From Impatiens glandulifera (lineage: Eukaryota; Streptophyta; Magnoliopsida; Ericales; Balsaminaceae), in the NCBI RefSeq assembly GCF_907164915.1, contig NC_061869.1, positions 27,149,616-27,213,615 of the forward strand: a stretch of 64,000 nt of DNA, given 5' to 3'. This document shows, piece by piece, positions 25,369 through 52,993 of this stretch; positions within the stretch are counted from its first letter, which is position 1; each line of letters opens with the position of its first letter. The notes under the pieces were generated by a model. It made no database searches. It was not told where the DNA came from and worked only from the letters and a program-made list of their open reading frames with translations. A program made the translations under genes and the position numbers.

Positions 25369-26562
25369 TGATAGAAAAATTAAGTAAGTTAATTTTTGGA
25401 ACCGGCTAGATAAACTAAACAGTTGTTAACTTTCATGTGCAGGTACAGATCAAATCGTATGAACCGGTTGCTGAAATCCTTCAAAGAAAATCAGTTCCAA
25501 GTGATCAAGTTACAGATCAGAGAAACCGGTTTTCACTCTCTCAAGCAACCGGTCAGCAAAGACAAAAGTTTACATACCATCCGAACCATACTGCACAAGA
25601 GACAAAACCGGAAAATTCAAACTTCAAGAGTGACGTAACATGACGAAACAGACGTGTCTTGAAAGAATAAAAGAAGATCAGATTCGATCGGAAGCATGCG
25701 AGGAAAGCAATGATGCTTTATTGATCTGAAGTTGACAACCTGAGGTGCATGTACAGCATGTGTCCAAATCTGAAAACCGATTATGTCATCTTACACTCAG
25801 AGCTGCCTGCATGACTGCCAAGTGTTGAGGAAGGTGAAGCGTGCAAGCAACCTCTCTGCACCGGCGTGATAATGATCAACCAATCCAGAGGAGAGAGAAG
25901 AAAAGTGACCGTTAGCTCTTCTCAACTATAAAAGGAAGACGAAACGTCTTCATTTAATGCAAGTTACGGATTACGAAAAACGAATCATAAAAGCAATAAG
26001 TTAGAGAGATAAATTGTTACGATCCAAACCGGTGTGTCTAAAACCGGAAGCTTTCTGTATCGTGTTGTGTTGAGTTGTTGTATTACATCAAAGTGTGAGT
26101 TGGAGTAACCGGCGAGTAGCGAAGTTGGGCTCGACCGGCAGTGTTGTTGTAACTATAAAAGTTAGTGGAGATCCTTCTCATAACCTAAGAAGAAGGGGTG
26201 ATGTAGGAGGGTTTGCTCCGAACATCCATAAAAATCCTTGTCTCGTGTTCTTTCTTTCGCTTACATTACTTACTTACTTATCCTAACCTCAAACCAAATT
26301 AATCGCACTCCGTAAACCGGTCCACTCATATCCATAAAACCGACTCCTTCTAAACATCATCTAAGTCGCATACGTTGCTTCAACCTGAAACAGACATTTC
26401 CGCCCTTGAACCCTGTTCAAGAGTCTGTGACAGTTTGTGTAGTGCTGAGAACGGTTTTAGTCTCTAACCGGACTATCACCAAAGTGTTGTGTGTGTTGTA
26501 AGCGGCCACCCTTCCTGAAACCGGAAACACCCCGTCCTCCAAGGGCGTCCCCGATCCTAACA
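25369..26562 (+). mobile_element. 5' LTR of element 1
   Basis: 1,194 bp, TGATAG...CCTAACA. It holds a TATA box (TATAAAAG, 25927-25934), many CCGGTT words and a leader with GGGTGATGTAGGAG (26197-26210). Compared with the 3' LTR it lacks 19 bp after AACCGGTTG near 25463. Small open frames inside the LTR (for example 25423-25643) have no motif and are not called as genes. Confidence 0.95.
25927..25934 (+). promoter_or_regulatory. TATA box of element 1 5' LTR
   Basis: TATAAAAG, conserved at 38691-38698 and 52287-52294. It should drive the genomic RNA that starts about 30 bp downstream. Confidence 0.7.
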
Positions 26563-26564
26563 AG

Positions 26565-26576
26565 TGGTATCAGAGC
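26565..26576 (+). other. Primer binding site of element 1 (initiator Met tRNA)
   Basis: TGGTATCAGAGC lies two bases after the LTR end and is complementary to the 3' end of plant initiator methionine tRNA, the usual Copia primer. Confidence 0.95.
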
Positions 26577-26607: not shown

Positions 26608-28470
26608 ATGGGAAGCATGACCCACAACGACAAGCCGCCAATGCTAAACAGCGAAGCGTTTAGCAGTTGGAAGAAACAGATGTATCTACATCTGATTACG
26701 TTAGATGATGAGATGAGCCGAGTCCTGAAAGAGGGACCGATCAAGATCAACAAGGAGGCAGACCAATGGACAAATGAAGATCGAAGACAGAGTAACCTGG
26801 ACAACCATTGCATGAGACACATCTACAAGGCTATAGATGATAACACCTTGAATAAAATATCAGAATGTGATAGTGCAAAGGAAGCCTGGGAAACGATCAT
26901 TCAGATCCATGAGGGAAACGAAAGAACTAAGGAGAACAAAATTTTGGTGGCTACACAGAAATATGAAAACATCAGGGTGAAACCGGGGGAAAACATGAAG
27001 GAATTCAGCAACCGGTTCACCAGTGTAGTCAACGAGCTTCAAACACTCGGAAAGAAGTATGACAACCGAGAAGTAATCATCAAAGCCCTAAGATCTCTTC
27101 CAAGCACTTGGGATATCAAGACCATGGTGATGAGGGAATCAAGCACCCTCGGGCAGAGGAAGTTGCATGATGTGTTCGAGGATCTAAAAGCCTACGAGTT
27201 CGAGATCAAGTCTCGGATCGAAGACGAAGTATCCACATCAACCGCAACCAGAGCTTTGGTTACATCGGTGGAACCGGCGGTCCAAGTATCAACCGTTCCG
27301 GCTTCAGTCAAAAGCACTGATCAAATCACTGAAGATGTGATGGCGATGCTAGCTCAGAAATTCGGGAAATTCATGAAGAAGAGCCAGCCACCATCTAACA
27401 ATGATTTTAATTATAATTATGTAGACAAATCAAACAAAAGATGTTATAACTGTGACGGTTTTGGACATTTCAGGTCAGAATGTAGAAAACCAAGTAGAGA
27501 CGATAGAAAACCGGAAGGAAGCTATCAGGGAAACAACTATCAGGGGAACAACTATCAAGGCAACCGGTACTAGGGAAACAACTACTAGGGAAATAACTAC
27601 CGGAGAAACGACAACCAACGAAACGACTACCGGAGAAACGATGATCAGCATGCAGACGAAGGAAAGGAGATTCAGAAGGCGCTCATTGCATCCGACGGTG
27701 GAAGCGAGTGGGCATACTCCGATAATGAAGACGGTGAAGAGAAAGTGACCTGCTTCATGGCAAACGACGAAGAGGTATTTGATTTCTCTTCTGACGAGTT
27801 TACCAAAGAAGATTTGGTTTCTGCACTCAACGAAATGGTTGCTGAGTTCAGAAACATATCTGCGTACATACCAACTTCGGTAGAATCTAAAATCGAACAA
27901 TCAAATGATGTATATGATAAAATCTGGGAAACCGAAATGTATGAACCGGATGAACTATTCTCTGATAATGAGATGACAGTTCAACCGGTAACTGAAACCG
28001 ATGAACGAGCAATGTACGTCACGGCTGCGTGGGAGAGATCACGTCAAGCGGTAAAACAAATGTGTAACTATAAAAGACACCCTAAGTGTAGGTATGGTAT
28101 CGGTTACGAACCAAATAAACAAAACGAATTAAAACAACCTAATGGGATGAAACTCACGAAAGACAACCTTCCATTCATAAGATTTGTCAAGAGTTCAAAA
28201 ACTGAAAATAACTTAAAACCGGAAGAAACACTTAAGTATGTAAGTCCTACTGAATCGGAAAAATGGCTTCATCCTGAGAGAAGGAAAGTCAATCAGAAAC
28301 CGAATAAACCAAATAAAACCCGACATCAAAGAAACTCATCACAACATAAGGCATTCTTGAGCAACAGCCAAGAAGTTAAGCCAAATATTATAAAAACAGA
28401 TACCGGGAAAGTGATCCGACTTATTCAAGTCTGGATCCCAAAGGGACTAATCAACCATGGACCCAACTAA
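26608..28470 (+). pseudogene. Gag of element 1 (two nonsense codons)
   Basis: Capsid-nucleocapsid precursor. The start is taken at MGSMTHNDKPPML, 31 bp after the primer site; an upstream in-frame ATG (26491) lies inside the LTR and precedes the primer site. Residues about 1-230 form the Copia gag domain (FSSWKKQMYLHL, KEAWETIIQIHEG, MKEFSNRF, LRSLPSTWD). A CCHC zinc knuckle CYNCDGFGHFRSEC lies at about residues 281-294, followed by repeats of GNNYQ and an acidic C-terminal extension of about 300 residues. TAG codons at 27571-27573 and 27586-27588 interrupt the GNNYQ repeats; the sibling (52994-54859) has glutamine codons there and is open throughout. The frame then continues to 28470. It overlaps the pol frame by 14 nt. 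Confidence 0.9.
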
Positions 28471-31400
28471 ATGTGGGTACCAAAAAGGTGTAAATAATTG
28501 TTTGTTGCAGGTTAGGAGGAGCAACCGGCTAAAGAATTCAGAATGGTACCTCGACAGCGGATGTTCAAGGCATATGACCGGAAACAAAGAGCTATTAACC
28601 GACATCAAGTACGAAACCGGAGCAATCATCACATTCGGGGACAACTCGAAAGGTAAAACAGTGGGCAAGGGTAAGATTGTCCATGGTAATCTATCCATAA
28701 GTAATGTATTGTTGGTAGAAGAACTGCGCTTTAACCTATTAAGTATAAGTCAAATGTGTGATGTGGGTTACAAAGTTGAATTTCATAAAAACTCATGTCT
28801 AGTTAAAAACCAGGATAATGACATTCTTTTAACCGGTAACCGGATGGGAAACATTTACAAAGTTAACTGGAAAACTGATTTTGAAAAACTTATGTGTATG
28901 ATAGCCGGAAATGATCCAAACTGGCTTTGGCATAAACGGTTAAATCACTTGAATTTCAAAACGATTAACTTCATATATTCCAAGGAACTAGTTCACGGTT
29001 TCCAAACGTTAAATTCTCAAAAGATAAAGTATGTGTTGCATGTCAAATGGGCAAACAAGTAAAATCATCTTTCAAAAGTAAAGGAAACTATCAATCTGAA
29101 CGATGCTTAGAACTTTTACACATGGATCTGTTTGGTCCGATTAAAGTGACCAGTTTAGGAGGCATGCATAATACCATGGTAGTTTTTGATGATTACTCTA
29201 AGTTTACTTGGGTTACTTTTCTAGCTTCTAAAAATCAAGCTACTCCAAACCTGATTAAACTGATTTTGAGGATACAAAATGAAAAATCTATTCGAGTAAA
29301 CAAAATCAGAAGTGATAGAGGAACTGAGTTTATAAACAGTAATTTAACTACTTTTCTTGATGATTCCGGTATTAGACACGAGTTGTCTAGTGCCAGAACT
29401 CCTCAACAAAATGGCCTGGCTGAGAGAAGAAACCGAACTCTCAAGGAAGCCGCAAGGTCGATGATAGCTGATTCGGGTATTGCTCAAAAGTTTTGGGTTG
29501 AAGCTATCAATACAGCATGCTTTACACAAAACCGATCTTTAGTAACTAAACGATTTTCTAAAACCCCTTTTGAAATTTACTTTGATCAAATTCCAAGCGT
29601 ACGGTATTTTCAAATTTTTGGAAGCAAATGCTTTGTTCACAATAACGGCAAGAATTACTTGACCGCTTTTGATGCTAAATCCGATGAGGGAATAATGTTG
29701 GGATATTCAGCTGTGAGTAAAGCCTACAGAATATACAATACTAGGACTTTAACAGTTGAAGAAACCGCACACGTTGTTTTCGATGAATCGGTTGAACGAA
29801 ACACTGCATTACCCTTCGATCTTCACAACAGAATGGAAAATTTCAATATCTATTCTGATGATGAAGACGAGGTTCCGGTTTTTAGACGTTTTATCAAGGA
29901 CCAAGAGGTTGATGCTGAAACTCAGCCTGATCAAGCTGCCTTACCTCAGAAAGTTGACTCTTCAGTTTCTACTGAAGAAATCGGTCGGTCTGACTCTGTT
30001 CAACCTACCGATCTGTCTAACCTTGATCAGCCAACCAAAAGCTTGATAGACACGTCTCGGATTAACCTTAGAAGGAACAAAAATCATCCTCTTGAATGAG
30101 TAATAAGTAACATATCCTCACCCGTCCGAACTAGGCAACAGAATTTGGATCACTATGAAAACTCAGCTTTCATATCACAAATTGAGCCGAAAAAGGTGGA
30201 TGAAGCATTGTCAGATCCAGATTGGATTTTAGCAATGCAAGAGGAATTAAACGAGTTTGAGAGAAATAAAGTCTGGTACCTAGTCCCTAGACCGAAAAAC
30301 AAACCGGTTATAGGAACACGATGGGTATTCAGAAATAAACTCAATGAAGACGGTTTAGTTACGAGGAACAAATCCCGGTTAGTGGCTCAAGGCTATAAAC
30401 AGGAAGAAGGTGTTGATTTTAAAGAATCATTTGCCCCTATAGCTAGACTTGAGGCCATTAGAATATTTCTAGCATACGCAGCCTTTAAAAATTTCAAAGT
30501 TTTACAATGGATGTTAAAAGTGCTTTTCTAAACGGTAAAGTAAATCAAGAGGTATATGTTAATCAACCTCCAGGTTTCAAAAATCCAAAACACGAAAATC
30601 ATGTCTACCGGCTGAACAAAGCCCTTTACGGTTTGAAACAGGCTCCAAGAGCTTGGTATGATACATTGAAACAATTTTTATTTGATCACAAATTCACAGT
30701 AGGTTCGGTAGACAAAACACTTTTCAAATTTGAAAGGAAGGAACACATATTACTTGTTTAGATATACATTGATGATATTATATTCGGATCAACCGATCAA
30801 AAGTTATGTGACAAGTTTTCAAAAATGATAACTGATAGATTTCAAATGAGTATGATGGGAGAATTGAGTTTCTTTCTAGGACTTCAGGTTAAGCAGATTG
30901 AAGCCGGAACCTTCATATGCCAACCGAAGTATACAGCCGAACTGCTGAAGAAGTTTGGAATGGATACATGCGCCGAAGCGGCTACGCCAATGAGTCCTTC
31001 CGTAAAACTGGACAAAAATGATGATGGTCAAGCCGTTGACATCATAGCATATCGAGGAATGATTGGATCACTGCTATATCTAACAGCCAGCCGACCTGAC
31101 ATAGATGATGATGGTCAAGCCGTTGACATCCAAGCAAATCCAAAGCAATCTCACTATACGGCGGCCAAAAGAATCCTAAAATATCTGAAGGGAACTCAAG
31201 AAGTGGGACTTTGGTACCCAAAAGACTCGAGCTTCAATCTTATAAGCTACTCAGACGCCGATTACGCAGGATGTAAGATTGATAGAAAGAGCACAAGTGG
31301 AACCTGCCAGTTCCTAAGTGACCGGTTAGTCACTTGGAGCAGCAAGAAACAAACATCTGTTGCAACATCAACCGCAGAGGCAGAGTACATAGCGGCCGGA

Positions 31401-31718
31401 AGCTGCTGTGCACAACTTCTCTGGATCCAACATCAACTAAGGGACTTCGGGATAGAAGCCAAGGAATCGCCAATCTTCTGTGACAACACCAGTGCTATAG
31501 CGATTACATACAATCCGGTGTTGCACTCAAGAACAAAGCATATCGATATAAGACACCATTTCATCCGGGAGCACGTTCAGGAGAAACACATCCGGCTGGA
31601 ATATGTCTCGACCGAGCAACAAGTAGCGGATATATTTACGAAACCGCTACAGGAAGCTAAGTTTTCTCACTTTCGAAATATTCTGGGACTTACTAATCTT
31701 AATCAACTGATATCATGA
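28457..31718 (+). pseudogene. Pol polyprotein of element 1 (protease, integrase, RT, RNase H), broken
   Basis: Copia order. Protease: DSGCSRHMTG (about 28550). GAG-pre-integrase: HKRLNHLNF (about 28931) and CVACQMGKQ (about 29033). Integrase: [14 protein letters not shown] and NGLAERRN carry the D, D and E residues. [37 protein letters not shown] and a YVDD region that here reads YIDD. RNase [24 protein letters not shown]. Breaks, judged against element 2: a 1-bp deletion near 28998 shifts frame; TGA at 30097-30099; a 1-bp deletion near 30500; TAG at 30759-30761; and a replaced segment at about 31097-31127. The pol frame is +1 relative to gag and opens at an ATG (28457) inside the gag end. 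Inactive. Confidence 0.93.
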
Positions 31719-32418
31719 TTATGCATGCATGTAAGAAACCGGGATATGTGTTCAGGGAGAAGCTCTCGCTTCTCAAACCATATTCAAATAGGCCATTGAT
31801 AAATCAAAAATGCTAACCGGGAGGAAGTCTCCGGTTATGCCCGATTACTTCATTATTTCAAATCACATGTATACTTACTATATGGTTGAAATAACCGGGT
31901 TGAAGTGGATAAAATAAATCCAAAGTTGAACAAACGTTGACATAAATCAACATTTCTTCACAATCGGAACAAAACATCCTACTAAAACCGGTAATGGAAA
32001 ACCGCTTAGTACAAATGCATTCTGGTCTGATGGAATGAACTTCTCCGGTTAACATGGGATGACTGACTGAGTTTTCATGCATATTTTGAAAAATGAAGCC
32101 TGTAATAAACAAAAATAGTCTACCACAATCGAGATGACGACATGTGTCCATCATCAAGAGAGGGAGACTCACATCTTGTCAATAGATATTTGTCATCATT
32201 AATATCTTGGTAATAATTAGATTTTTCCTTGGAAATAAACATTATTTACTTCAACAAGTTAAAGCCTATTAAATAACTGATGACATCATCAAGCATGCTT
32301 AAACCTATTAATCTAGCCGAATCCCTGACTATATAAACCACCCTTAAACCTTCACAAATCTTCACAAGATTACTATTCACAAATATCAGTCTTGAGCTTA
32401 AAACTCTCTCTCAAGAAC
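31719..32418 (+). other. Spacer between pol and accessory gene A (element 1)
   Basis: Non-coding region conserved in element 2 (58110-58816). It includes a CCGGGATATGTGTTCAGGGAGAAGCT word after pol, a TGATGACATCATCA near-palindrome at about 32279-32292 that resembles TGA-type bZIP sites, and the TATA box at 32329. It probably holds the pol 3' end and the promoter of gene A. Confidence 0.55.
32329..32337 (+). promoter_or_regulatory. TATA box before accessory gene A, element 1
   Basis: TATATAAAC about 90 bp before the ATG at 32419, in the same place as TATATAAA (58725-58732) in element 2. It suggests separate transcription of gene A. Confidence 0.5.
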
Positions 32419-33134
32419 ATGAACTCCAACTCTCTAACAAAGAAGATTCTATTGGCAGATTTTAACTCAATCTACCAATATGAAGATCACGAAGTTAAAG
32501 AAATGTTCTTAGCCGTCGAAAGAAGCGGGCTAAGAAGCTTCCTTGAAAACAGATTCATTCTCGACTACCTAGTAGTCGAAGAGTTCTTCCAGACCGCAAA
32601 GGAAGTGCATCGAGACATAATCGTTGCACAAGTTTACGGTCAAAAGTTTCTATTCAGCGAGACGGATTTCGCTGTATACTGCGGTTTGCCCACTGAAGGG
32701 GTAACCGATCTAACATACTCCCCGGTGACCATGGAAGAAATGTGTCGTCGGTTAGACCCTAGGGTGCTAAAAGCCAACTCTCTCACAAGTACCAGCTTCT
32801 CTGTGAGATTCTGGGAAAGTCCATCTTGGGCAGAGAGAAAAGCTACTATTACACCCAAAGGCTTTTCGAGATGATGATTGCTGTAACGGTTGGGACACCG
32901 GTCAACTGGTCCTGGATCATCTTCAGCAACCTGAAGAAGATGCTCCTCTCCAACAAAACTGGCTACGCTCCTCAGCTGAGCGGTTTTTGTGCCAGTCTGG
33001 ACATCCACTACGGACCGTTCGTAACCCTCCATCAAAGGCATGTGCTCACTAAAGAGAGAGTACAAGAGATGGTCGACCGGTGGGAAGCAGTCAAGGCCAA
33101 AAGAAATCAAGCGGCTGAATCATCTAACGTCTAG
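32419..33134 (+). pseudogene. Accessory gene A of element 1 (22-bp deletion)
   Basis: Unknown function. The start MNSNSLTKKILLADF matches the intact copy in element 2 (58817-59578). It encodes the accessory domain: a GLRSFLENR motif, VYGQKFLFSETDFAVYCGLP, EGVTDL, and after the break TPVNWSWIIFSNLKKML and FCASLDIH. Relative to element 2, 22 bp are missing at about 32750, where two GGTT words that flank the missing piece have collapsed into one; the frame shifts and reopens at about 32826 to the normal stop at 33134. No signal peptide or membrane span. Its own TATA box lies upstream and a hairpin (33171-33204) lies in the 3' region. The V-x-G-x-x-F-x-F...GLP pattern recalls plant transposon proteins of the Athila ORF1 type, but this is only a resemblance. 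Confidence 0.75.
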
Positions 33135-33170
33135 CCTGTCCTTTCCCTCCGTCTTATTTTATTTCTTTTC

Positions 33171-33204
33171 CAAAACCGGTAATTTTGTTGTACTACCGGT
33201 TTTG
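33171..33204 (+). other. Hairpin in 3' region of accessory gene A, element 1
   Basis: A perfect 11-bp stem (CAAAACCGGTA with TACCGGTTTTG) closes the 12-nt loop ATTTTGTTGTAC, 37 bp after the stop. The loop contains TTGTA, a word common in plant polyadenylation regions. A similar loop follows gene B. Confidence 0.65.
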
Positions 33205-33567
33205 CACCTCAATTAATGAAGCATATTCTCTTCCTTTTTTAATCTAAAATCTAAAAATCATAAATGATCAAACATTTAATGTGCCGTATCAAAATCAAAT
33301 CAGATCTCTCTTGGAAACAGAAATCTTCATTCTCAATGAGCATGCCTGACTTGATTCGACAAGACATTCCTTTATTCTCTTGAAAAATCACAAAGTCATT
33401 AATGACTAGACATAAACGGTTAGATTTTTCAAATATTTTCATTAAATGCATCCAACCGTCTCAAGCTATAAAAGGGGACTCATTCCTCCATTCTCAAAAA
33501 ACGCTTCCTGCATTCCTTCTCTCTAAAGCTTGAAAGTTCAGAAAATCTTTCCAAAACCTTTCTCACA
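33205..33567 (+). other. Spacer between accessory genes A and B, element 1
   Basis: AT-rich non-coding spacer conserved in element 2. It ends with the promoter of gene B: TATAAAAG at 33467-33474, about 100 bp before the ATG. Confidence 0.5.
33467..33474 (+). promoter_or_regulatory. TATA box before accessory gene B, element 1
   Basis: GCTATAAAAGGGGACTC is identical in core to 59885-59901 in element 2 and similar to the LTR promoter core GCTATAAAAGGAAG. The ATG follows at 33568. Confidence 0.55.
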
Positions 33568-34314
33568 ATGTCTTCTGAACTCAGAAACACCCTAATCGTC
33601 GATTTCGAAGACGTAAAAGACTGCAGATATCATGAATGGGTCTTCCAACCGATCATAGAATCGGGGCTCCAAGGTTTTCTCAAAGGCTCAAACACTATCC
33701 TTGTGGAGGAGGTGTGTGAGTTTTTCAACAATGGCCACATTCTAGATGATGGCAGCATCCGCACCATCATCAACGGCCAATTTCTTCGTTTTACCGAAGA
33801 AGAATTTGCCAACTTCTTTCACCTTCCAACCGATGGATTTTCAGACTTCCCCACGCCATTCTTGCCGGCTAAGGAAGACTTTTTCCAGATCCTCTCATCT
33901 TCCAACGCTCCGATCAAGGACTTTGGGAAGAAAGAGAAACTTGCTCCTCACTACCAAGTCCTGCATGACTTGGTTCAAAGGTCTATCATGGGCCGAATGC
34001 CAAACTAGAACTATAACCGGGAGGCGTTCGACATCATGATAGCCATCATCCGCAACTCCTCAATTAACTGGGCAACCTACCTCTTCAACAACCTGAAGAC
34101 GTTGATAACCGCTTCAAGGAGAAGGACCAGTTTCGCCCCTCAAATCACCCGGTTTCTGATGGCTCAGCGCCGCAACCTTGGACCCGGTGTTTCGGTCGGA
34201 CCGTCCAACACCATCACCATATCCATGTTGGAAAGATGGATATCAAGGATTGAGGAATGGACACCTGAAAACACCGTGAACAAGTGGTACGAAAGAATGG
34301 TGGAGGAGGACTAG
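33568..34314 (+). pseudogene. Accessory gene B of element 1 (one nonsense codon)
   Basis: Unknown function; 248 codons in a single frame with one TAG at 34006-34008, where element 2 has CAG. It starts MSSELRNTLIVDFEDVKD. The protein is a divergent relative of A and C: DFED near residue 12, GLQGFLKG at 33-40, EEVCEFFNNG at 47-56, FFHLPTDGFSDF at 83-94, then after the stop FDIMIAI, INWATYLFNNLK, FAPQITRFLMAQRRNLGPG. These align in order with GLRSFLEN, EEFFQTAK, YCGLPTEGVTDL, VNWSWIIFSNLK and APQLSGFCASL of gene A. Soluble, without membrane segments. Own TATA box upstream and a hairpin downstream (34350-34384). Confidence 0.75.
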
Positions 34315-34349
34315 TTCAAAGAAAACTAAGTTATCGGTTTTTTTCTTTC

Positions 34350-34384
34350 CGGTTTTTGGTCATTTTGTTGTACGACCAAAACCG
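34350..34384 (+). other. Hairpin in 3' region of accessory gene B, element 1
   Basis: TTTTGGTC pairs with GACCAAAA around the loop ATTTTGTTGTAC, identical to the loop after gene A, and the stem extends with CGG/CCG after one bulged T. The stem sequence is wholly different from that of gene A (ACCGGTA/TACCGGT). Confidence 0.6.
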
Positions 34385-34842
34385 CTCAATGTTCACTCTT
34401 ATCATTTATGAAATGTTTAATTTTAAAAGTCTCCGCTTTTCATTCATATATTTCCTTCCGGCTTTTAAAAGATAATAAACACAAAAACCTCATGTTAAAC
34501 GAAACTTCCGGTTAACAATGTTTCAAGTAAAACTGGAATCACAAGCAAAGATGAAAAGTTTGAAAATTTACCGCCCACGGTTTTACCTCCGAAAATTTAC
34601 CGCCCATTGATTCTCCACTTTTACCGCCGAAAGTTACTGCAATAACTTTTGGAGGGAAAATTGGCGGCAAAAAACATCAAGCGACGGTTCATCTTCCAAC
34701 CGTTCGGAACCGTCATCTATATAAGTTCTAACCATCCCATTTGACACATGTGCTTTCTCTCTCTAAAATTTCCAAATCTTCAAAAGCTTTCTACTCTCCA
34801 ATTATCATCGCTCTTCATTTCTTTTCTTCTCAAAAATCTATC
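34385..34842 (+). promoter_or_regulatory. Promoter region of accessory gene C, element 1
   Basis: Holds three copies of TTTACCGCC (34567-34575, 34596-34604, 34620-34628), a GGAGGGAAAATTGGCGGCAAA word (about 34650-34670), repeated AACCGTT/GAACCGTC words, and a TATA box TATATAAG at 34718-34725. The ATG of gene C is at 34843. Element 2 keeps the layout (60755-61288) with base changes. The TTTACCGCC motif resembles E2F-type sites but is not an exact match. Confidence 0.5.
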
Positions 34843-37782
34843 ATGGATATAAGCAAAGCTCCCTTCCAATTGATGTTGCAAGTTGATTTCGCGGATATTG
34901 ATGAACATGCTGAAGACAAAAACAAGGCTGTTCTTCAATCTCTAAGAGATTCTGGGTTAGAGGAATTCCTATCTGGTCCATTCACTGTTTATCCGGCGGC
35001 GGTGACGGAGTTTCTGGCGACGGCGACGCTCACAAAGAGGAAGATCTCCGCCACAGTCAACGGGAAGAACATTCTGATCACCGAGGAGCTATTTGCTGAA
35101 GCCCTCGGTTTGCCCAACACAGGCCTGGATCTCAAAACTGACCTAACCGCTGCAGAATCAAATGTTGTCCGGTTGGTGATATCGTTTTCAGATCAGGATC
35201 TAGTGATTCATTCCAGCAGGAAGAATAAGCTAAAACCGGAGTTCAAGTGGTTGTTGAACGTCATCGCCCGCTCACTTCAGGGAAGAGGAGGTAACTTCGA
35301 CAACCTGACGAAACTTAAGCTCAAAATGCTGATGGCCATTGTCCGCGGTGACAAGGTGGATTGGGGATTCGTTATTTTCGAAGAATTTTGCCAAATGGTG
35401 ATTCAGAAGGATGGCCGGGTTCAGGCCTTCGCAATGCAGATCGTCAAAATTCTTAAGTTCCTTAATGTGGAACTTGGTGAAGGTGAACCGCTCCCACTCA
35501 ACAATATTCTCAACTCAGAGTCAATGATTGAGAGACCGGAGAAAGCGGTCAAGCCGAAGTCATCAAGAACAAAGTCGTCCAAAGGGACCAGCTCTTTCGC
35601 TCCGGCTGAAGAAGTCTCCAAACAAAAGAAACCGAAAAGAAAGGCGGTTGAAACCGAAGCCGCATAAGAACCGAAGGGGAGGAAGAAGTCGACTGCAAGG
35701 AAGAGTTCCAACAAGCCGGCGGACTCCGAGAAAACTCTTTCCTCGGATAATCCACCAGAAAGAACCGGAGACGTTTTCCAACCCATCCCCATCAATACCG
35801 TTCACCCTACCCCTATTCCATCTAACTCACCAAGGCAAGCCGAACCCTCGGGGAGCCAGAAAACCGAGTCAGCTTCAAAGGAGGAAGCAGAGGTTAGTAT
35901 ACACTCTGAAACCTCCAAGTCTCCAAGCAAAAGAATCGAAGAGGTAATAGCCGACGTGGGCTTAAATACCTCTGAAGCCATTGAGGACGTTATCCAAGAC
36001 ATTGCAAGGGAAACCGAAGACGATGTGTCAAGTCGTCGCAAGTCAGTTGATAAGGTTCAGATACCCGATTAGAGTGAAGTTCAACCGGTCGAAGAAACGG
36101 CCAAAACCGCAGACATTACACCTCCGGCTCAGGAAGGTAATTTTGAAGAACAGGAACCATCCTGTTTCGCGGGGAACAAGTCAGCTTCAGATAACCAATC
36201 GGCTCAAGATGGGCCATCTGACTCAGCATCCATACCTGAAGGATCTGTTCAGGTCAACAAAGGAAAAGAAGTCCTTGTTGAAGATTCAGTGGTAACAGGA
36301 AAAGGTACCCTTCAAACCGGCCCTCAACCAGAAGTCATAATCGGGGACGAGGTCCCTTTTACCGCAGAACAAGAAGATGAATTATTCGAGGAACTTCTCA
36401 GGGACATGAACAAGGGTGCTAGTGATGCGATAGCACCATACCTCATGTGGGTAAAACTCCGTTGTGAAACAAAGATATCCGATATGGCTCCAGGACTGAG
36501 CGACAACAAGCATTGGGATAGACTCATCAAGCTGGAAGAAATGGCCCTCAAGTTAGCTTACACCAATCTTATCCAACCCGCCTTCAGCAAAACCGCGGTA
36601 ATTCTTGAATATGCTTGGTTGCAAGAAGTGGAGGATGCATTGAAAGAAGCTGAAGGAAAGACGCTAACTCCGATCGAAATAAGAATGACTGAACGGTTCC
36701 ATACGGTGCGAGAAAAGCTCTTACAAAGCCTCGACAATCTTGATGCACAATGGAGAAAAGGCTGCCGAAACCAACTCAATAATACCGATCTACATCAAAG
36801 TAAGCCATTCTATGTGGTCGGGGAGTCATCTATAACAGCGGAGAATCTGGAACAAGACTCATCTCAAACTGCTAAGGCTCCGGAAATCGATCAAAAGAAG
36901 CAAGCGGTGGTTGATACAATTGATTCATGTCTTGGCAGTTATAAAACCGCAACCGATGAGAGGATTGCAACTGCTGAAGCTAATCTGTCAAACACTATAC
37001 GGGGATCTGTACAAACCGAAATCGCCAACACCGTTCAAACATCTATCAAGTCTATGATAGATGAGGCTATGCAGACCTCCGTCAAATCCTTAATCGCAGA
37101 GTCCATTCAAACCGCAACCGCTCTACTGTTAGATATGTTGCAGGCAATGGCTATTCAAATTGGGGAGTTGTCCAAACTCCAAGTCAGCAAGACTCAAGCG
37201 CAAATCGAGTCTGATGCTGAAACCGCTAAAAGGCTGCAAGATGAAGAAAGGGAAAGGGAACGGGTGTAGAAGGAGATTGAGGACAAAGATTACGAGCTTG
37301 CCCAAAAGTGCAACAAGGAAGAACAGGCAGGTATCCAGGAACCTCCACCGGCTCAACCGTCCCATTCAATGAACACAAGAAACAAGAAGAAACGGAGTGC
37401 GGTTGCAAAGGTAATCAAGCGGGCAGAACGAAGCAGTCAAAGAGCAATTGAACCAGTCGGGCTGAATGTGCAACCTCTTGATGAAGAAGAAGAAGATGAC
37501 ACTGAAGAACTTAACCGGCGCAAGAAGAGGACAATTGAAGGTTCAACCGCAACTACAAGCTTCAGAACAGTTGTTGCTCCACCGCTTCATCCTTCAAAAC
37601 CAGTTTGTGCCGGTTTTGGATTTGGCAAAAGGACTCCCGGCATCTCAAGTGTATGGGCCGGAATGTTGATTGACGCTGAAAGACGCGACAGGGAGTGGAA
37701 GGCAGGGGAAGAGGAAGAAAGAAGACGGCTTGAAAAAGAACTGGAGAAAGATCTTGAAAAGGGGGGACCATCCAAGCCTTAG
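34843..37782 (+). pseudogene. Accessory gene C of element 1 (three nonsense codons)
   Basis: Unknown function, 980 codons including the final stop, all in one frame with stops at 35665 (TAA), 36070 (TAG) and 37267 (TAG). The start MDISKAPFQLMLQVDFADIDEHAED is preferred to an upstream in-frame ATG (34741) because the element 2 copy and the A and B paralogues start equivalently. Order: accessory domain (about residues 1-235, with GLEEFLSGP, EALGLPNTGLDL, VDWGFVIFEEF); a low-complexity Lys/Ser/Pro/Glu region with basic clusters (KQKKPKRKAVE); a second conserved region (about 500-640, with YLMWVKLRCETKISDM); a helical repeat region (IANTVQTSIKSMIDEAMQTSVKSLIAESIQ-type, possibly coiled coil); and a basic tail with NKKKRSAVAKVIKRAE that could be a nuclear signal. 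It is the last gene before the 3' LTR, as in relics M and X. Confidence 0.75.
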
Positions 37783-38113
37783 TCCTTTTCTTTATTTCCT
37801 TCAAAACAATTTATGTTTAACTATGCTTCAGAACTTGGTTATTTTATCATACTTTTCTATGTTAGTTTCCACATACCTTTTTGAAAAATCAAACACATGT
37901 TTTTAAAACATTTTCTTCAAACTGAAAATAATCAAAAAGGGAGAAATCGCTAAACAAGTTTTTCAAACCGGCCACACATTACAAGTTTTGAATATTTATT
38001 CTAAATAATCAAAAAGGGAGAAATTGATAGAAAAATTAAGTAGGTTAATTTTCAAATCGGCCACACATTACAAGTTTTGAATATTTATTCTAAATAATCA
38101 AAAAGGGAGAAAT
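37783..38113 (+). other. 3' region of element 1 with triplicated polypurine tract
   Basis: AAAAAGGGAGAAAT occurs three times: 37934-37947, 38011-38024 and 38100-38113, each after AATAATC. The second copy is followed by 36 bp that imitate the LTR start (TGATAGAAAAATTAAGTAGG) and then by a repeat of the CGGCCACACATTACAAGTTT stretch. Only the third directly precedes the LTR that matches the 5' LTR best. The tandem unit is about 77-89 bp. Confidence 0.75.
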
Positions 38114-39326
38114 TGATAGAAAAATGAAGTAAGTTAATTTTTGGAACCGACTAGATAAACTAAACAGTTGTTAACTTTCATGTGCAGGTACAGATCAAAT
38201 CGTATGAACCGGTTGGGGCATCATAAACCGATTGCTGAAATCCTTCAAAGAAAATCAGTTCTAAGTGATCAAGTTAAAGATCAGAGGAACCGGTTTTCAC
38301 TATCTCAAGCGACCGGTCAGCAAAGACAAAAGTTTACATACCAGCCGGACCATACTGCACAAGAGACAAAACTGGAAAATTCAAACTTCAAGAGTGACAT
38401 AACATGACGAAACAGACGTGTCTTGAAAGAATAAAAGAAGATCAGATCCGATCGGAAGCATGCGAGGAACGCAATGATGCTTTATTGATCTGAAGTTGAC
38501 AACCTGAGGTGCATGTCCAACACGTGTCCAAATCTGAAAACCGATTATGTCATCTTACACTCAGAGTTTCCTGCATGACTGCCAAGTGTTGAGGAAGGTG
38601 AAGCGTGCAAGCAACCTCTCTGCACCGGCGTGATAATGATCAACCAATCCAGAGGAGAGAGAAGAAAAGTGACCGTTGGCTCTTCTCAGCTATAAAAGGA
38701 AGACGAAACGTCTTCATTTAATGCAAGTTACGGATTACGAAAAACGAATCATAAAAGCAATAAGTTAGAGAGATAAACTGTTACGATCCAAACCGGTGTG
38801 TCTAAAACCGGAAGCTTTCGGTATCGTGTTGTGTTGAGTTGTTGTATTATATCAAAGTGTGAGTTGGTGTAACCGGCGAATAGCGAAGTTGGGCTCGACC
38901 GACAGTGTTGTTGTAACTATAAAAGTTAGTGGAGATCCTTCTCATAACCTGAGAAGAAGGGTGACGTGGGAGGGTTTGCTCCGAACATCCATAAAAATCC
39001 TTGTCTCGTGTTCTTTCTTTTGCTTTCATTACTTACTTACTTATCCTAACCTCAAACCAAATTAATCGCACTCCGTAAACCGGTCCACTCATATCCATAA
39101 AACCGACTTCTTCTAAACATCATCTAAGTCGCATACGTTGCTTCAACCTGAAACAGACATTTCCGCCCTTGAACCCTGTTCAAGAGTCTGTGACAGTTTG
39201 TGTAGTGCTGAGAACGGTTTTAGTCTCTAACCGGACTATCACCAAAGTGTTGTGTGTGTTGTAAGCGTCCACCCTTCTTGAAACGGGAAACACCCCGGTC
39301 CTCCAAGGGCGTCCCCGATCCTAACA
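38114..39326 (+). mobile_element. 3' LTR of element 1
   Basis: 1,213 bp, TGATAG...CCTAACA, followed by the target duplication TAACT (39327-39331). TATA box TATAAAAG at 38691-38698. It contains a 19-bp stretch near 38214 absent from the 5' LTR; element 2 also has this stretch, so the 5' LTR of element 1 probably lost it. Confidence 0.95.
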
Positions 39327-39794
39327 TAACTTTATATTAATACATATCCTATCATAAACTTCAATAACTCGTAATTTCTCATTGTATTCATGTTTGTTTA
39401 AGTTTGAAATTATTAGATTTTCACTTCTTGATAATTACATCAATGTCTGAAATTGTATTCTATTTCTTATCTTAACTACTCTAAATTTAAATAAGACTCT
39501 TAAATATGAGTGAGTGTGTCAATGAATGAAGACATGTTTATTGAAGAACGAAATTATTGACATGGTATGGAAGGAATGAAGACATTTTTATTGAAGAAAG
39601 ACATTATTAACCTGGGATGGAAGGAGTATAGATTTGTCAAATAATTTGTGAATTACCGATGGACTAATTGTGGATGAGAATTTTTGGAAGAAACGTGAGG
39701 CATGATAGGTCTGATCCTAATGTTATGGTCTAGAAGAGGCTATCTTATGTTTTATATCATTTAGAATATTCCTCTCAACTTAGAAGTGAAAATA
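39327..39794. repeat. 4.1-kb tandem repeat, unit 3, right part
   Basis: Continues unit 3 after element 1 with TAACTTTATATTAATACATA, the sequence that follows the insertion site in units 1, 2 and 4. Ends at the next unit start. Confidence 0.85.
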
Positions 39795-42700
39795 TTTCAT
39801 TTATTTGTTTTTTATTAATCCCTTATTAATTTGCAAATATGAGTTATTGTTGTCAAATGCTATTAATAATAATCCATTTTTTCTTTAGATTAATGTTAAA
39901 TAGTTTATATTTATGAGTTCAAAGAGAAAATAATTTTTAAACTTTGTACACATGTAAATTTTAAGCATGTATTTTGAAATATAAAAATAAATTGTAAATA
40001 GATTTAACAAGGATGTAATAATTATTTTTTAAGTAATAAAACACACTTCATTGATCTATTAAATTGCAAATATCGTAACTTATTGTAAAATAATTATTTA
40101 AAAATATGTTTAGTTCAAAATTTTGACATGAATTATAATAAATTATCAAAAATACTAATCAATATAAAATATCACAAATATTTGTGATCAACAAAAAAAA
40201 ATAAAAAATCAACTTAAAGCTATTCAAATAGATAAAGGTGAAATTACAAAAAAAAAAAAAAACATATGCAAGAGCAAGAAGAATAACACTATCTCGGGTA
40301 ATAGATTTCTTTAGAAATCCTTTCTAACCATTGAAAAGTTATTATCAAATTATTGTATTGCCCCCATTCGAAAGATACTCGTTATCCAAGTTTAATGCAA
40401 TAATTGGAAAAATGGTTTTACCCATCCTACAGAACAACTTTTGTCACATTGTGCACCTCAAGTCTTTGAGTTTCAATTTTTTTTTCTCTTCTTTTTAATT
40501 GTCATCATTTAGAATATAATTTTTCAATTATATTCAACATTTTTATTATCATTTCAACAAATAAACAAAAAATCTTCTTCTATATTAACTAATTACCATT
40601 GCAAATGAGAAAAGGTTCAATTACGATGAAATTTCAATAATATTGTCAAGAATGTGGTGGCTAAGAACTGGTTAATTGGTATTTCTCTTTCTCGCGAAGG
40701 TCTACAAATTAACTATTTATTATTTATTGATGGAACCTACAATGTGGTGGATCGAAAACTGTTGTTACATTTGTTGGTTTGTCAAATATCCTCAAATACA
40801 AAAAATTGGAAAGGTAATACTCCTATAACAAATTTTTGATTAAAATTGTTCTTTAAACTCACAAAATCAATTCCACAATCGTATTTATTAGTGAAAATAA
40901 ATTGTATTTATTGGTGCAAATGAATCGTATTTATTGGTTCAAATGGGATAAACATGGAGTGAATAAAACAATAAATCTAATTAGTTAAAAATTCAAATAA
41001 TATTTGGTATGGTCTCATGTTCAAACTTTATTATAATTCAAAGGTATATTTTCAATTAGGTATGCTTATTATGCAATGTATCAATATCCGGAAATGGAAT
41101 ATAATCATTACATATTTTTTGCCACAATCTAAATTTTATAATTTTTTTAGTGAAACTCCGTGTCAATCTAAAATCTTTAATTTTTTATGAAAATTTATTC
41201 AGAATATACTCCTTACAGGTGACAAGTTTTTTTTTAACATTTGAAATTTTGTAGTGGAAAGAAATAAACATTCAATTTTTTTTTTGTCGTTAGCTGCCGG
41301 CTAAATAAATTTGACATAATCATACAAAATTGCCTCCAATATTGTTAAACACCTCGGATCTTGGTTTAAATTTGTTTAGTAAACAAGCTATTAAAATTTA
41401 CTCCACTAGTTTCACTATGAAAACTAATCATTGTCATATTTTTATGATAGAAAGGCTCAAACTATCCATTAAAATAATTTAATTTTATCATTTACTAGTT
41501 TAAATGAAATAGGTTAATATAACATAAGAGCCGCCTTAAATATTTTTATTTATTTATTTAAGATTTTATTAAAATCTCCTACTTACTGATTCTACTCTAA
41601 TTTAATACCTATTATCGTTATCTCATTTCCATTTAAAACGTTTTAAGTGAAAATTGTACGGTTAATTTTTTATTCTTTAGACACCAACTATTATGACTTA
41701 AATTATGTATTCGTATATTACATGCATTAGTTTTACATTTAACATTTTAATTGAATCAAATAAATTTTAAAATCAAAGTTAATTTACAATTCTTTATGCC
41801 TCAATTAATATTTTATTCCAATTACACGATTTTCAATTTTAGTCAGTAGTTGACATAAATAATTAAATATTAGGAATTTTTCATTAACAAATAATTTTAT
41901 AACTTAAAATCTAACTCAGATTTTGTTAATATACATTTACACAACTTTAAAAAAAATAATATTATAATTTAGAATAGATGTAGTTGGCAATCTTATATTT
42001 TATATTACATAAATTTTTTATTTTAATATTTAAATTATATATAAATATATTAATTTACATTATATAAATTATACATATTTCAATATTAAAGATAATTTAA
42101 AAGAAAGTATTTTTTTATTAGGTATCCAACCTTTTAAAGATTGGAAATAATATTATAAACATGACCAATTAAATTTTTATAATTTGATTGTGACACCTAA
42201 TATAATGATTTCACATTGTTTTCCCTTTTATGTTTATTTATTGTGTTTAATTATTTCATTATTTTTATACTTGTGTTCTAACTATAACGATAATTTGAAT
42301 TATACCTTTTTATATTCAAAACTTACTAAAAAAAATATCTCTAAATTCTATTGAAATATTGATGGAAATGAATCGAAATATTCAATATATAAATATCTAA
42401 AGAAAATATTATGTGCCCATAAATTAATTACCCTATCCATTTTATCTTACATCATACAAATTATTAATAGAATCTAAATTTATATTACAACAATCATATA
42501 ATTTTAATTTTGATTTATTTCTTATCCTAGATAATAGTAATATGTTAACAATATTATGAGGACAAGTTATTTTGAAAATATCATTAAAATATTATTATAC
42601 CTTATAAGCATGATTAACATTATTGTTTTCTATAAATACATCATCTCTATCTAAATTACAATACTCTTTATAAGTATATAAATAGAGAAGTTATCTTAAC

Positions 42701-43365
42701 CATCATTCTCACACTCTCAAATATTTTCTACAATTTTGATTTCATTCTTTAGTCCATCTAGCCTTTTATGTATCATCAATTTGATAGGTAATGCAATTAT
42801 TTTATATTTTCAATTTTATTGCTTAAATTGTAGATGTAAATGTGTAGAGATTGACATAATTATTATATATTAACTAGATACTATTTTATATTAATCAGGT
42901 GGATTGCAGTGTCTTCTTATATTTAATTAACAAGTAATCCCTACAGACACATTCGAAAAGTCTCCATCTTGCCAATTATTTTTTTCAATTAATTTGTCTC
43001 CGTTCATTGACATTACTCTCTCATGTTTAAGAGACTTTTGATAGTAATCCGTACTTTTGACTATTTTATATTAATCAGGTGGATTGTGGTACGAATACGA
43101 CAAAGAAATCCAAGTGTTTCGAGGTTTATGATATTTTTGAAGTATCAATAGTAAGGTATATGTTTATGATAGTTAATATAGTTTAATTGTGAGTTAGTAA
43201 GATTTCGTTATATTTGTGTTTGATGTTGAAACATATTTTTTCAACTTGAACAAGTTTAAAGATATGAACATCAAACTCACGTATACTTTAATCTAAGTAA
43301 CTTGTGATACAACTATATAAACCATCATAGACATATAACTTTATATTAATACATATCCTATCATA
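39795..43365. repeat. 4.1-kb tandem repeat, unit 4, left part
   Basis: Starts TTTCATTTATTTG. It has a single TATTGCCCCCATTCGAAAG word (about 40355) instead of the double one in units 2, 3 and 5. At 43037-43092 about 105 bp of the usual sequence are replaced by a filler that includes a copy of ACTATTTTATATTAATCAGG, the intron-end sequence from about 130 bp upstream. Interrupted by the Tnt1-like element after TCATA. A 61-codon frame at 40654-40839 is not conserved between units. Confidence 0.85.
42675..42926 (+). other. Promoter and short spliced frame in unit 4
   Basis: TATATAAATAG (42675-42685), ATG at 42768, GT donor at 42788-42789, acceptor CAG at 42896-42898, stop at 42924-42926. The second codon differs (Tyr for Asp). 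Same layout as in units 2 and 3. Confidence 0.25.
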
Positions 43366-44087
43366 TGATGGAAATGCACCACAACAGTAAACAACAAATA
43401 CGAAATTTATCTTACGTTTGGCAACACTTTCCCAAACCGTTTAAACCTGTGAGGAAGCTAACAAATAGGTATACAAAATGCAATCAACACAGCCCTAAAA
43501 CAGTTAGTAACACACCAAGCAAGCACACACAAACAACACAGAATTTTAGCGTGGAAAACCCCTCAATGGGTAAAAACCACGAGACACCTAGTGCCGCTTA
43601 AAATCCACTATCACCAATAAGAGAGCAATACAAAAGTCTTCTCTAGACAATACTAGCGGCATACAAATTCATAATACCCTTGGAAACATGCACATGAAGG
43701 ATATAGAAACAATCAAAGAACAATAAAGGAAGAATATCACCAAAAACAACTGCTACTGTTCCGGCAACAAAACCCCGACCTCCAGACCTCAGAATCCGAT
43801 CTCCACCGTCCAGAATGTTGGCCCAGAAGTTGTGAAGCTTCTGTCCAAAAATTAGAACGATCCAACGGTGCAAACTCTGGCAATCATCAAAATACTAAGG
43901 CTGCTGAAATTGAAGTTTTTCCCCTCTTTTCTTTCTTGATTTTCTCTCTCTTTCTTTTGATCTTATTTCTTGCAAAAGAAGATTTCTCCCCTTTTATATT
44001 GCTCCCAAATAAGTGAATAAAGTGGGGCCCAAATGGGCCTATTTGCTGGGCTTTTCCTCATGGACTAAGGAATCAAAAAACCCAACA
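43366..44087 (-). mobile_element. 3' LTR of Tnt1-like element
   Basis: 722 bp; on the minus strand it begins TGTTGGGTTTTTTGATTCC right after the polypurine tract and ends CATTTCCATCA. It contains the AAAGAAAGAGAGAGAAAATC run typical of its family leader and no gene; open frames on either strand here are chance. Confidence 0.93.
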
Positions 44088-44101
44088 AATCTCCCCTTTT
44101 T
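44088..44101 (-). other. Polypurine tract of Tnt1-like element
   Basis: AAAAAGGGGAGATT on the minus strand directly precedes the 3' LTR. Confidence 0.85.
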
Positions 44102-44106
44102 CCTGA

Positions 44107-45963
44107 CTATGAGGAAATGTTCGCCATCCCGGCGATCGAACAACACACCTTCAACTTTTCCCTTGCCAATGCCTTTGTTAACATATCGGAACCATTATCA
44201 TCAGTGTGAACTTTATCAAGTTCAAACAACCCATCTTCAAGAGATTCTCTAATCCAATGATACCGCACATCAATATGTTTCGTTCTCTTATGAAACATGG
44301 AATTCTTAGCAAGGTGTATTGCACTTTGATTATCACAAAGAACTATGTAGCGCTGTTGCTTGAAGCCAAGCTCCTGTAGAAATCTTTTCAACCACAATAG
44401 TTCTTTGCAAGCTTCCGTTGCTGCCATATACTCAGCCTCTGTTGTCGATAAGGCCACACACTTTTGCAATCTTGATTGCCATGAAACAGCTCCCCCTGCA
44501 AATGTCATCAAATATCCAGAAGTGGATTTCATGTTATCCTTATTTCCAGCCATATCAGAATATGTGTATCCCATAAGCACCGGCTTTTCATTTCCAAATG
44601 TGATACCCAATTTGGAAGTACCGCGCAGATATATGAGAATCCATTTAACTGCTTCCCAATGCTTCCTACCAGGATTTGACAGAAACCGACTAACAACACC
44701 AACTGCATGAGCTAAATCCTTCCTTGTACATACCATAGCATACATCAAGCTACCAACCGCTGAGGCATATGGAACCTTATCCATATCTTCAATGTCCTCC
44801 TTTGAAGTAGGGCAATCTTTATCTGTTAGCTTAAAGTTGGTAGTAAGAGGAGAACTAACCACTTTAGCTTTGTCCATGTTAAACCTACAAAGCACCTTCT
44901 CAATGTATCGCTCTTGTGACATATGCAACTTCTTGGCAGCTCTATCTCGAGTGATCCGTACCCCAAGAATTTGTTTCACAGGCCCCAAGTCTTTCATTGC
45001 AAAAGACTTGCTTAACTACTGTTTCAACTTAGCAATTCTTCCTGCATTCTTGTCAACGATAAGCATGTCATCAACATAAAGCAATAAAATGATGAAATCA
45101 TCATCACCAAACCTCTGAAAGAAAACACAATGATCTGAAGTAGTCTTTCGGTAGCCTTGCTCCCCCATAACAGACTCAAACTTCTTATACCACTGTCTTG
45201 GTGCCTACTTCAGCCCATATAGACTTTTCTGACGTCTACACACATAGTCTTCTTTACCTTCTACCTGAAACCCTTCAGGCTGCTCCATATAGATTTCTTT
45301 ATCCAATTCACCGTGAAGGAAAGAAGTCTTGACATCCAGCTGCTCAACCTCAAGATCAAGACTGACCGCTAAACCGAGAACCACCCGAATAGAACCCATC
45401 TTCACAACTGGAGAGAAAATCTCATCGAAATCAATACCTTTTTTCTGGCTGAATCCTTTGACCACCAATATAGCTTTGTATCTGGGCTGTGAGGTGAACT
45501 CATCAGTCTTCACCTTATAAACCCACTTGTTCTTCAATGCTCTCTTGCCTTTAGGCAACTTCACCAACTCATAAGTATTGTTCTTATACAAGGAATTCAT
45601 CTCATCTTGCATAGCTTCAGCCCATTCTTTCTTATACTCATCTTCTATAGCTTCTGCATAACACTCAGGCTCCCCCTCATCAGTGAGAAGAACATACTCA
45701 TTTGCAGAATAACGTACAGAAGGATGACGATCTCTCGTAGACCGTCTGAGTGGAACACATGGTGGCATGTCTGGAACTAGTAACTCTGGATGAACAACTT
45801 CATCTACATCTTGCTCTTGAGCATCAACATCATCAGTACCATGGTCTTCAATAGGAACATCATCTCCAACCTGTGTGTCAACATGTTGTAGAGGAACTGG
45901 ACCCAAATCAATAAGATCATCACTATGTCGAGGAACTGTCTCTATCTTCTCAACATCCTTCAA
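44107..45963 (-). pseudogene. RT-RNase H half of Tnt1-like polyprotein (two nonsense codons)
   Basis: A single minus-strand frame with TAG at 45205-45207 and 45016-45018. RT: NKWVYKVK, LDVKTSFLHGELDKEIYMEQPEGF, KSLYGLK then the first stop where the family has Gln in KQAPRQW, and YVDDM (complement of 45067-45078). RNase H: YSDMAGNKDNMKSTSGY, STTEAEYMAATEACKELLWL, DNQSAIHLAKN, HKRTKHIDVRYHWIRE. It follows the gag-integrase frame through a frame change near 45985. The motifs are those of Tnt1-94-type (Tork lineage) Copia elements. Confidence 0.92.
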
Positions 45964-48113: not shown

Positions 48114-48149
48114 CGTTCAAATAGTTCAATTCACAAATATGCAACCAAG

Positions 48150-48161
48150 GCTCTGATACCA
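48150..48161 (-). other. Primer binding site of Tnt1-like element
   Basis: TGGTATCAGAGC on the minus strand, 3 bases inside the 5' LTR, complementary to initiator methionine tRNA. Confidence 0.93.
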
Positions 48162-48164
48162 CTT

Positions 48165-48886
48165 TTATGGAAATGCACCACAACAGTAAACAACAAATGC
48201 GGAATTTATCTTACGTTTGGCAACACTTTCCCAAACCGTTTAAACCTGTGAGGAAGCTAACAAATAGGTATGCAAAATGCAATCAACACAGCCCTAAAAC
48301 AGTGAGTAACACACCAAGCAAGCACACACAAACAACACAGAATTTTAGCGTGGAAAACCCCTCAATGGGTAAAAACCACGGGACACCTAGTGCCGCTTAA
48401 AATCCACTATCACCAGTAAGAAAGCAATAAAAAAGTCTTCTCTAGACAATACTAGAGGCATACAAATTCATAATACCCTTAGAAACATGCACATCAAGGA
48501 TATAGAAACAATCAAAGAACAATAAAGGAAGAATATCACCAAAAACAACTGATACTGTTCCGGCAACAAAACCCTGACCTCCAGACCTCAAAATCCGATC
48601 TCTACTGTCCAGAATGTTGGCCCAGAAGTTGTGAAGATTCTGTCCAAAAATTAGAAAGATCCAACGGTGCAAACTCCGGCAATCATCAAAATATTAAGGC
48701 CGCTGAAATTGAAGTTTTTCCCCTCTTTTCTTTCTTGATTTTCTCTCTCTTTCTTTTGATCTTATTTCTTGCAAAAGAAAATTTCTCCCCTTTTATATTG
48801 CTCCCAAATAAGTGAATAAAGTGGGGCCCAAATAGGCCTATTTGCTGGGCTTTTCCTCATGGACTAAGGAAACAAAAAACCCAACA
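48165..48886 (-). mobile_element. 5' LTR of Tnt1-like element
   Basis: 722 bp, TGTTGGG on the minus strand to CATTTCCATAA. The inner end reads AA instead of CA, probably a point change or primer-junction variant, since the 3' LTR ends CA. Confidence 0.93.
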
Positions 48887-52948: not shown

Positions 52949-52950
52949 AG

Positions 52951-52962
52951 TGGTATCAGAGC
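52951..52962 (+). other. Primer binding site of element 2
   Basis: TGGTATCAGAGC two bases after the LTR, for initiator methionine tRNA. Confidence 0.95.
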
Positions 52963-52993
52963 GAGGTTCTTAGCACTCAAGCAACCAAAGAAG

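Follow-up and report, generated by a model that had tools for sequence, protein, structure and literature searches.

Introduction

Sireviruses have colonised many plant genomes, those of grasses foremost (PMC3414828), and are described as carrying repeated polypurine tracts, together with palindromic, high-copy boxes with a CGG-CCG core (PMC2829016). No function is agreed for either their env-like genes or their repeated boxes. In sunflower, CG methylation of SIRE elements is reported to be dramatically reduced between the long terminal repeats (LTRs), where CHG methylation is still high (PMC12844716), and Transposase_32 is reported as a partial match in the 3' extra open reading frame (ORF) of Athila (PMC11728184). 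Self-encoded anti-silencing has been described for VANDAL DNA transposons, whose VANC protein is reported to be less conserved between families than VANA (PMC5735166). The 64,000-nucleotide stretch analysed here (NC_061869.1, positions 27,149,616 to 27,213,615, forward strand; hereafter the window) is part of the 654-Mb genome of Impatiens glandulifera (Himalayan balsam). It contains two Sirevirus-like Copia retrotransposons, elements 1 and 2, with three tandem genes, A, B and C (the trio), downstream of pol. The products of these genes are read, with a probability of about 0.42, as homologous, selectively kept accessory proteins of the element, most likely VANC-like in action.

Homology, integrity and copy number of the trio

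An initial annotation of the window had described three tandem paralogues downstream of Copia pol in element 1 and a repetition of the trio in element 2. Position, tblastn and alignment bore out the former, and the second trio was found as described, with C running past the window end:

32419-33134, + strand, gene A of element 1, frame change near 32751
33568-34314, + strand, gene B of element 1, single in-frame stop at 34006-34008
34843-37782, + strand, gene C of element 1, in-frame stops at 35665, 36070 and 37267
58817-59578, + strand, gene A of element 2, open, 253 aa
59997-60754, + strand, gene B of element 2, frame change near 60374
61289-64000, + strand, gene C of element 2, stop at 63614-63616, continuing past the window end

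With tblastn, A and B were 27-33% identical (E down to 3e-27), A and C mostly 24-29% identical (E down to 2e-18), and B matched C with E of about 1e-11. An 11-row alignment of A, B and C had 27 invariant columns, including DF, SGL, FL, LP, G and W. Judged by sequence comparison, A, B and C are true homologues, beyond chance likeness of motifs. In-place duplication of whole units was considered and rejected, the best likeness between spacers (45 nt, E = 0.001; 20 nt, E = 0.004) being short and too weak. The initial annotation had also placed decayed relatives of the trio in relics M (6451-8608) and X (9270-13035). This did not hold: neither relic had a tblastn match to A, B, C, gag or pol at E 1e-3, and a six-frame profile search with filters off returned chance-level rows only (E of 1 or higher).

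Good matches to gene A numbered at least 150 across the genome, where a first look gave 19,054 candidates, of which 150 were scored. The sample of 21 copies used below consisted of element 1 and 20 loci picked by similarity to A, one of them element 2. A, B and C were all present in 20 of the 21 copies, L029 being without B and most of C. By length criteria, full-length frames were open in 17 (A), 10 (B) and 4 (C) of the 21 copies, and all three were open in none. A word-based search of limited sensitivity among 5.8 billion proteins found no homologues outside Impatiens and matched only Impatiens gene models (3 and 4 matches); with A alone, in a search of the same kind and limit, none of 290 candidates matched. 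Because of this limited sensitivity, absence of homologues outside Impatiens cannot be claimed.

Three further observations concern these genes. A 156-aa open frame lies antisense to gene A of element 1 (32640-33110, - strand) and is probably a by-product of codon use. Locus L043 (G000:C4:30000001-30008000), a copy of the element 1/2 family, has A almost abutting LTR sequence, and the intervening stretch lacks both B and C. In P0005, the NCBI gene model 'sesquiterpene synthase 2-like', a fragment of gene C has been merged with a terpene synthase model.

Selection on the trio

The median pairwise ratio of nonsynonymous to synonymous substitution rates (dN/dS) was 0.076 for A (17 copies, 136 pairs; biased downward by sampling on A protein similarity), 0.161 for B (10 copies, 45 pairs) and 0.192 for whole C (4 copies, 6 pairs), all far below 1. 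C domain 1 had a median of 0.099 (16 of 21 copies, ungapped comparison), and along C the ratio was about 0.08 over the first 240 codons and 0.14-0.30 thereafter. The RNase H end had a dN/dS of 0.055 (10 of 21 loci). The comparison of element 1 with element 2, which is free of the choice by A similarity, gave 0.073 and 0.077 for A, 0.057 and 0.315 for B, and 0.125 for C domain 1, with 0.087 for gag and 0.110 for integrase as comparison genes. Read out of frame as a control, the A region had dN/dS of 2.77 and 1.78 (12 open copies). The low in-frame ratios, the element 1 versus element 2 values and the frame control together show that A, B and C are selectively kept coding genes, under about as strong a constraint as gag and pol, the second half of B less so. 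The initial annotation had held that a ratio near 1 would mean frames free of selection; since the trio is under selection, this objection falls away.

TATA boxes

Each gene of both trios was preceded by a TATA box:

32330-32336, + strand, TATA box of gene A, element 1, 89 nt upstream of the ATG
33467-33473, + strand, TATA box of gene B, element 1, 101 nt upstream of the ATG
34718-34724, + strand, TATA box of gene C, element 1, 125 nt upstream of the ATG
58725-58731, + strand, TATA box of gene A, element 2 (locus L021), 92 nt upstream of the ATG
59887-59893, + strand, TATA box of gene B, element 2 (locus L021), 110 nt upstream of the ATG
61167-61173, + strand, TATA box of gene C, element 2 (locus L021), 122 nt upstream of the ATG

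The pattern TATAWAW was found 89-95 nt upstream of A in 21/21 copies, 101-113 nt upstream of B in 20/20 (L023 left out) and 103-125 nt upstream of C in 19/19 (L026 and L029 left out). Such a box occurred in a proportion of 0.037 (A), 0.041 (B) and 0.012 (C) of shuffled sequences (1000 shuffles, one copy each). The fixed place of the boxes across copies makes separate promoters for A, B and C likely in the element 1/2 family. In sister families, the C TATA box was kept in all four copies with a located start, and L054 carries this box at a corresponding place; the B TATA box was found in just one of five by the strict pattern.

AACCGG boxes

AACCGG/CCGGTT was the top enriched hexamer in the noncoding DNA of elements 1 and 2, first of 90 composition-matched hexamers, and the 5' LTR and leader of element 2 (51692-52993) contained 18 sites. 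The 5' LTRs, counted together with the leader, had 10-14 boxes per kb, and the 3' LTR of element 1 had 7.4. Density was 7.1, 4.4 and 7.7 per kb in the three spacers and 2.9-4.1 per kb within A, B and C (18 of the 21 copies, L023, L026 and L029 being left out as the start of B or C was not located), and 0.40 per kb in the remaining window. All but one of the 15 AACCGG sites outside elements 1 and 2 fell at 8-13 kb, the stretch of relics M and X, in which no trio homologue was found. Among nine loci taken at round coordinates, the three with related gag or pol had 30, 33 and 13 sites, and the other six had 0, 0, 1, 2, 0 and 5. AACCGG density tracked Sirevirus-like DNA among the loci sampled. In 19 of 21 copies, the TATA box of gene A was immediately preceded by CCGG. 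The core of the box is CCGG (AACCGG, often AACCGGTT), at high copy number in the LTRs and linker; the boxes are comparable to those of Sireviruses but not identical, because the published core is CGG-CCG.

A shortened Sirevirus-like element with gag and integrase was seen at L046 and L050 (G000:C5, about 9.985-10.007 Mb), and the stretch after it is still dense in AACCGG. Reverse transcriptase and the trio were looked for in L046 with L050, and neither was found.

Sister families and Transposase_32

Locus L041, picked at a round coordinate, is a diverged sister element with the same gene order and a partly decayed trio. Its identity to the element 1/2 family was 84.9% in pol, 34% in A, 33-39% in B, 35-42% in C domain 1 and 25% in the C tail. 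Between families, identity is thus much lower in the trio than in pol, yet the trio is constrained within one family; this between-family divergence may reflect fast change or module exchange. In a small tree, sister B grouped with B (support 0.956) and sister C with C (0.984); the placement of sister A had a support of just 0.222, and its best pairwise score was with A. On this sequence evidence, the B and C types, and A by pairwise score only, predate the split of the two element families. The initial annotation had proposed that a gene was captured and triplicated. The trio genes are only about 24-33% identical and the B and C types appear older than the family split, and host capture stays unsupported because no host source gene was found.

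C domain 1 matched Pfam Transposase_32 (PF20167, 'Putative plant transposon protein') with E down to 3.5e-9 and 24.0-37.2 bits, under the curated cut-off of 45 bits. B matched more weakly (E 0.005-0.03 in three of four copies), and A had no match in the element 1/2 family and E 0.018 in the sister family. A genome search with Transposase_32 gave 3,707 candidates; 150 were scored, and 43 of these exceeded the cut-off, the best with 56.3 bits. The four best places (L051-L054), which were those examined, were sister-family C genes, each with a B gene upstream, and aligned to C of the element 1/2 family at 36-40% (E 2e-42 to 1e-50). By these profile scores, C belongs with Transposase_32, the cut-off being exceeded by sister-family C genes. 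The earlier description of the trio as a gene of unknown function needs amending for C, which falls with a Pfam family reported in sunflower Athila (PMC11728184).

Pfam scans gave no match to DUF1985 or to the plant mobile domain (PF10536) in any trio protein scanned. Elsewhere, DUF1985 matched the genome (G000) at no fewer than 150 places. Many of these have an open frame some 519-538 aa long and nearly equal scores, which suggests recent amplification of a VANDAL/MULE-like family. In the same genome, matches to the plant mobile domain cluster at C1:149.5-151.0 Mb and C6:42.4-43.0 Mb.

Protein features and predicted fold

Gene C encodes the homologous domain 1 (approximately 34843-35571), a basic stretch resembling a nuclear localisation signal (residues 225-300, isoelectric point 10.1) and a long charged tail, judged by eye to be coiled-coil-like. 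The highest 19-residue hydropathy was 1.27 for A, 0.93 for B and 1.17 for C (one copy each), in agreement with the earlier view that no membrane span is present. The models of A and C domain 1 had the same order of helices and strands, and not the unrelated folds that the initial annotation had allowed for. Both are predicted to adopt a mixed alpha-beta soluble fold, and the nearest solved relative of this shared fold is predicted to be VANC21. The best PDB sequence row, a dynein-docking protein, had E 0.0029 with the first profile and 0.13 with a wider one, and was taken as chance. No literature linking the extra genes of Sireviruses or other LTR elements to the VANC fold, nor any on 9lnj, was found in a search that most subscription papers lay outside.

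Layout of the elements and the rest of the window

Both elements belong to Ty1/copia, with the order gag, integrase, RVT_2 (by Pfam in element 2, by similarity in element 1). In element 2, the Pfam order was PF14223, PF13976, PF00665, PF07727, that is, Copia gag and then integrase before RVT_2. The features beyond the trio are:

25369-26562, + strand, 5' LTR of element 1, TG...CA, 1194 nt
26565-26576, + strand, primer binding site of element 1, TGGTATCAGAGC
26608-28470, + strand, gag of element 1, broken; Copia-type gag domain PF14223 seen on the element 2 copy
28471-31718, + strand, pol of element 1, broken: integrase, RVT_2 and RNase H region; Pfam on element 2 pol
37936-38112, + strand, three polypurine AAAGGGAGAAA copies of element 1, starting at 37936, 38013 and 38102
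38114-39326, + strand, 3' LTR of element 1
51693-52948, + strand, 5' LTR of element 2
52994-58109, + strand, gag (52994-54859) and pol (pieces 54894-55409 and 55437-58109) of element 2

The LTRs are about 1.2 kb in both elements, and the primer site is TGGTATCAGAGC. The LTR pair of element 1, with a target site duplication TAACT, differed by a Kimura two-parameter (K2P) distance of 0.030 over 1193 sites, equivalent to about 1.15 My at a rate of 1.3e-8. The last two polypurine copies (38013, 38102) sit in an 89-nt tandem repeat preceding the 3' LTR, and element 1 has three polypurine tracts before its 3' LTR, where Sireviruses have several. By these sequence features, the elements are classed as Sirevirus-like Copia retrotransposons.

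An AT-rich repeat (GC 0.23-0.25) with a period of about 4 kb occupies 14700-25368, 39327-43367 and 48467-51692; its five copies, partly more than 90% alike, are split by elements 1 and 2 and by another Copia element. The latter, at 43368-48466 (- strand), is different, has long open frames and carries a 300-nt LTR-like stretch 97% alike at both ends. No AACCGG site was found across its 5.1 kb.

Proposed explanation and alternatives

The homology, gene order, purifying selection and fixed TATA boxes of the trio are observed, and the VANC-like reading adds a mechanism to them. A, B and C would each have a TATA promoter for separate transcription, and the proteins would bind short repeated boxes in the noncoding DNA of the element, with AACCGG as the putative target. 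Binding would keep the element free of silencing, with loss of methylation. To the shared domain, C would probably add its basic nuclear-targeting stretch and coiled-coil-like tail. The predicted likeness in fold to a plant transposon protein that strips silencing marks suggests that the trio is likely to help the element to escape being switched off, and fold, niche, tempo and boxes are most simply brought together by sequence-specific anti-silencing encoded by the retrotransposon.

Several points weigh against this explanation. No chain reached Foldseek E < 0.06 against any model. The boxes were no better conserved than their surroundings across copies, which argues against tight co-evolution, and they occur in coding DNA too. 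They are also common to families with very different trios, unlike the motif of VANC. The trio further differs from VANC in having no DUF1985 match, in belonging to another class of transposable element (TE) and in comprising three paralogues instead of one.

The trio proteins might instead act as DNA-binding transcription activators on AACCGG boxes near the LTR and internal TATA boxes, with methylation kept. The boxes do lie in LTRs and ahead of the internal TATA boxes, including the CCGG before that of gene A, and Bousios et al. proposed a regulatory role for Sirevirus boxes (PMC2829016); the functional precedent of the nearest fold is however anti-silencing, Pfam recognised no activation domain, and the explanation is considered unlikely. 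Selection near the strength of that on RNase H shows a role in the life cycle, which would also suit helpers of the virus-like particle, whether structural or RNA-handling, and suppressors of RNA silencing, such as the modulator role proposed for the Tekay extra ORF (PMC11728184). Against these, besides the Foldseek result given above, an Ebola nucleocapsid-subunit chain ranked first for C domain 1 with a probability of 0.06, and a viral fold library searched with A only gave nothing at E 0.001 or better, leaving such helpers rather improbable.

Chromatin tethers that steer integration are improbable to a similar degree, if anything slightly more so. In such tethers the domain would bind a partner in chromatin, with the long tail of C as the bridge to the integrase complex, in line with the basic stretch and charged tail of C; the tail is however missing from A and B, and genes for particle components would be unusual in having a promoter each. 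The usual assumption for the slot between pol and the 3' LTR, in gag-pol sense, is an env-like membrane protein. The initial annotation had found env a poor explanation, and the hydropathy maximum of 1.27, far from that of a membrane span, the presence of three copies and the predicted mixed alpha-beta soluble fold concur in making it highly improbable.

A wider form of the VANC-like reading is doubtful, and is put forward tentatively. Sirevirus-type elements would have an anti-silencing system of their own, formed by three VANC-fold proteins in the 'env' slot with their own promoters and binding CG-rich boxes; many env-like genes, and Transposase_32 at large, would be anti-silencing factors; and VANC and the trio would form two branches within a single superfamily of plant TE proteins. 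If env-like genes and boxes were partners, both puzzles would merge into one testable protein-DNA pair. If true, self-encoded anti-silencing would extend from DNA transposons to LTR retrotransposons, and Transposase_32 would acquire a likely role.

Comparison with known systems

The carrier of Transposase_32 in sunflower is a Ty3/gypsy Athila element with one such ORF (PMC11728184), whereas in balsam it is a Ty1/copia element with three tandem genes and their own TATA boxes. With Sireviruses, the balsam elements share several polypurine tracts and the slot of the env-like genes, which follows pol and precedes the 3' LTR; the CG-rich palindromic box found at high copy number in their LTRs and linker is comparable to the Sirevirus boxes, not identical. 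The balsam elements differ from Sireviruses in having three genes and no membrane span, and AACCGG(TT) is absent from the consensus boxes, with core CGG-CCG, in Table 3 of PMC2829016. The plant mobile domain proteins MAIN/MAIL1 and their Gypsy and MULE relatives resemble the trio in being plant TE-borne and in their proposed link to silencing or anti-silencing (PMC5418596), and differ from it in the domain itself, PF10536. With VANC of VANDAL (MULE), the trio shares its encoding by a plant TE and a conservation within a family that is much lower between families than that of the replication enzyme. The predicted fold may be common to both, and AACCGG, dense in the noncoding DNA of the element and present in its coding DNA, would be the counterpart of the short VANC motif.

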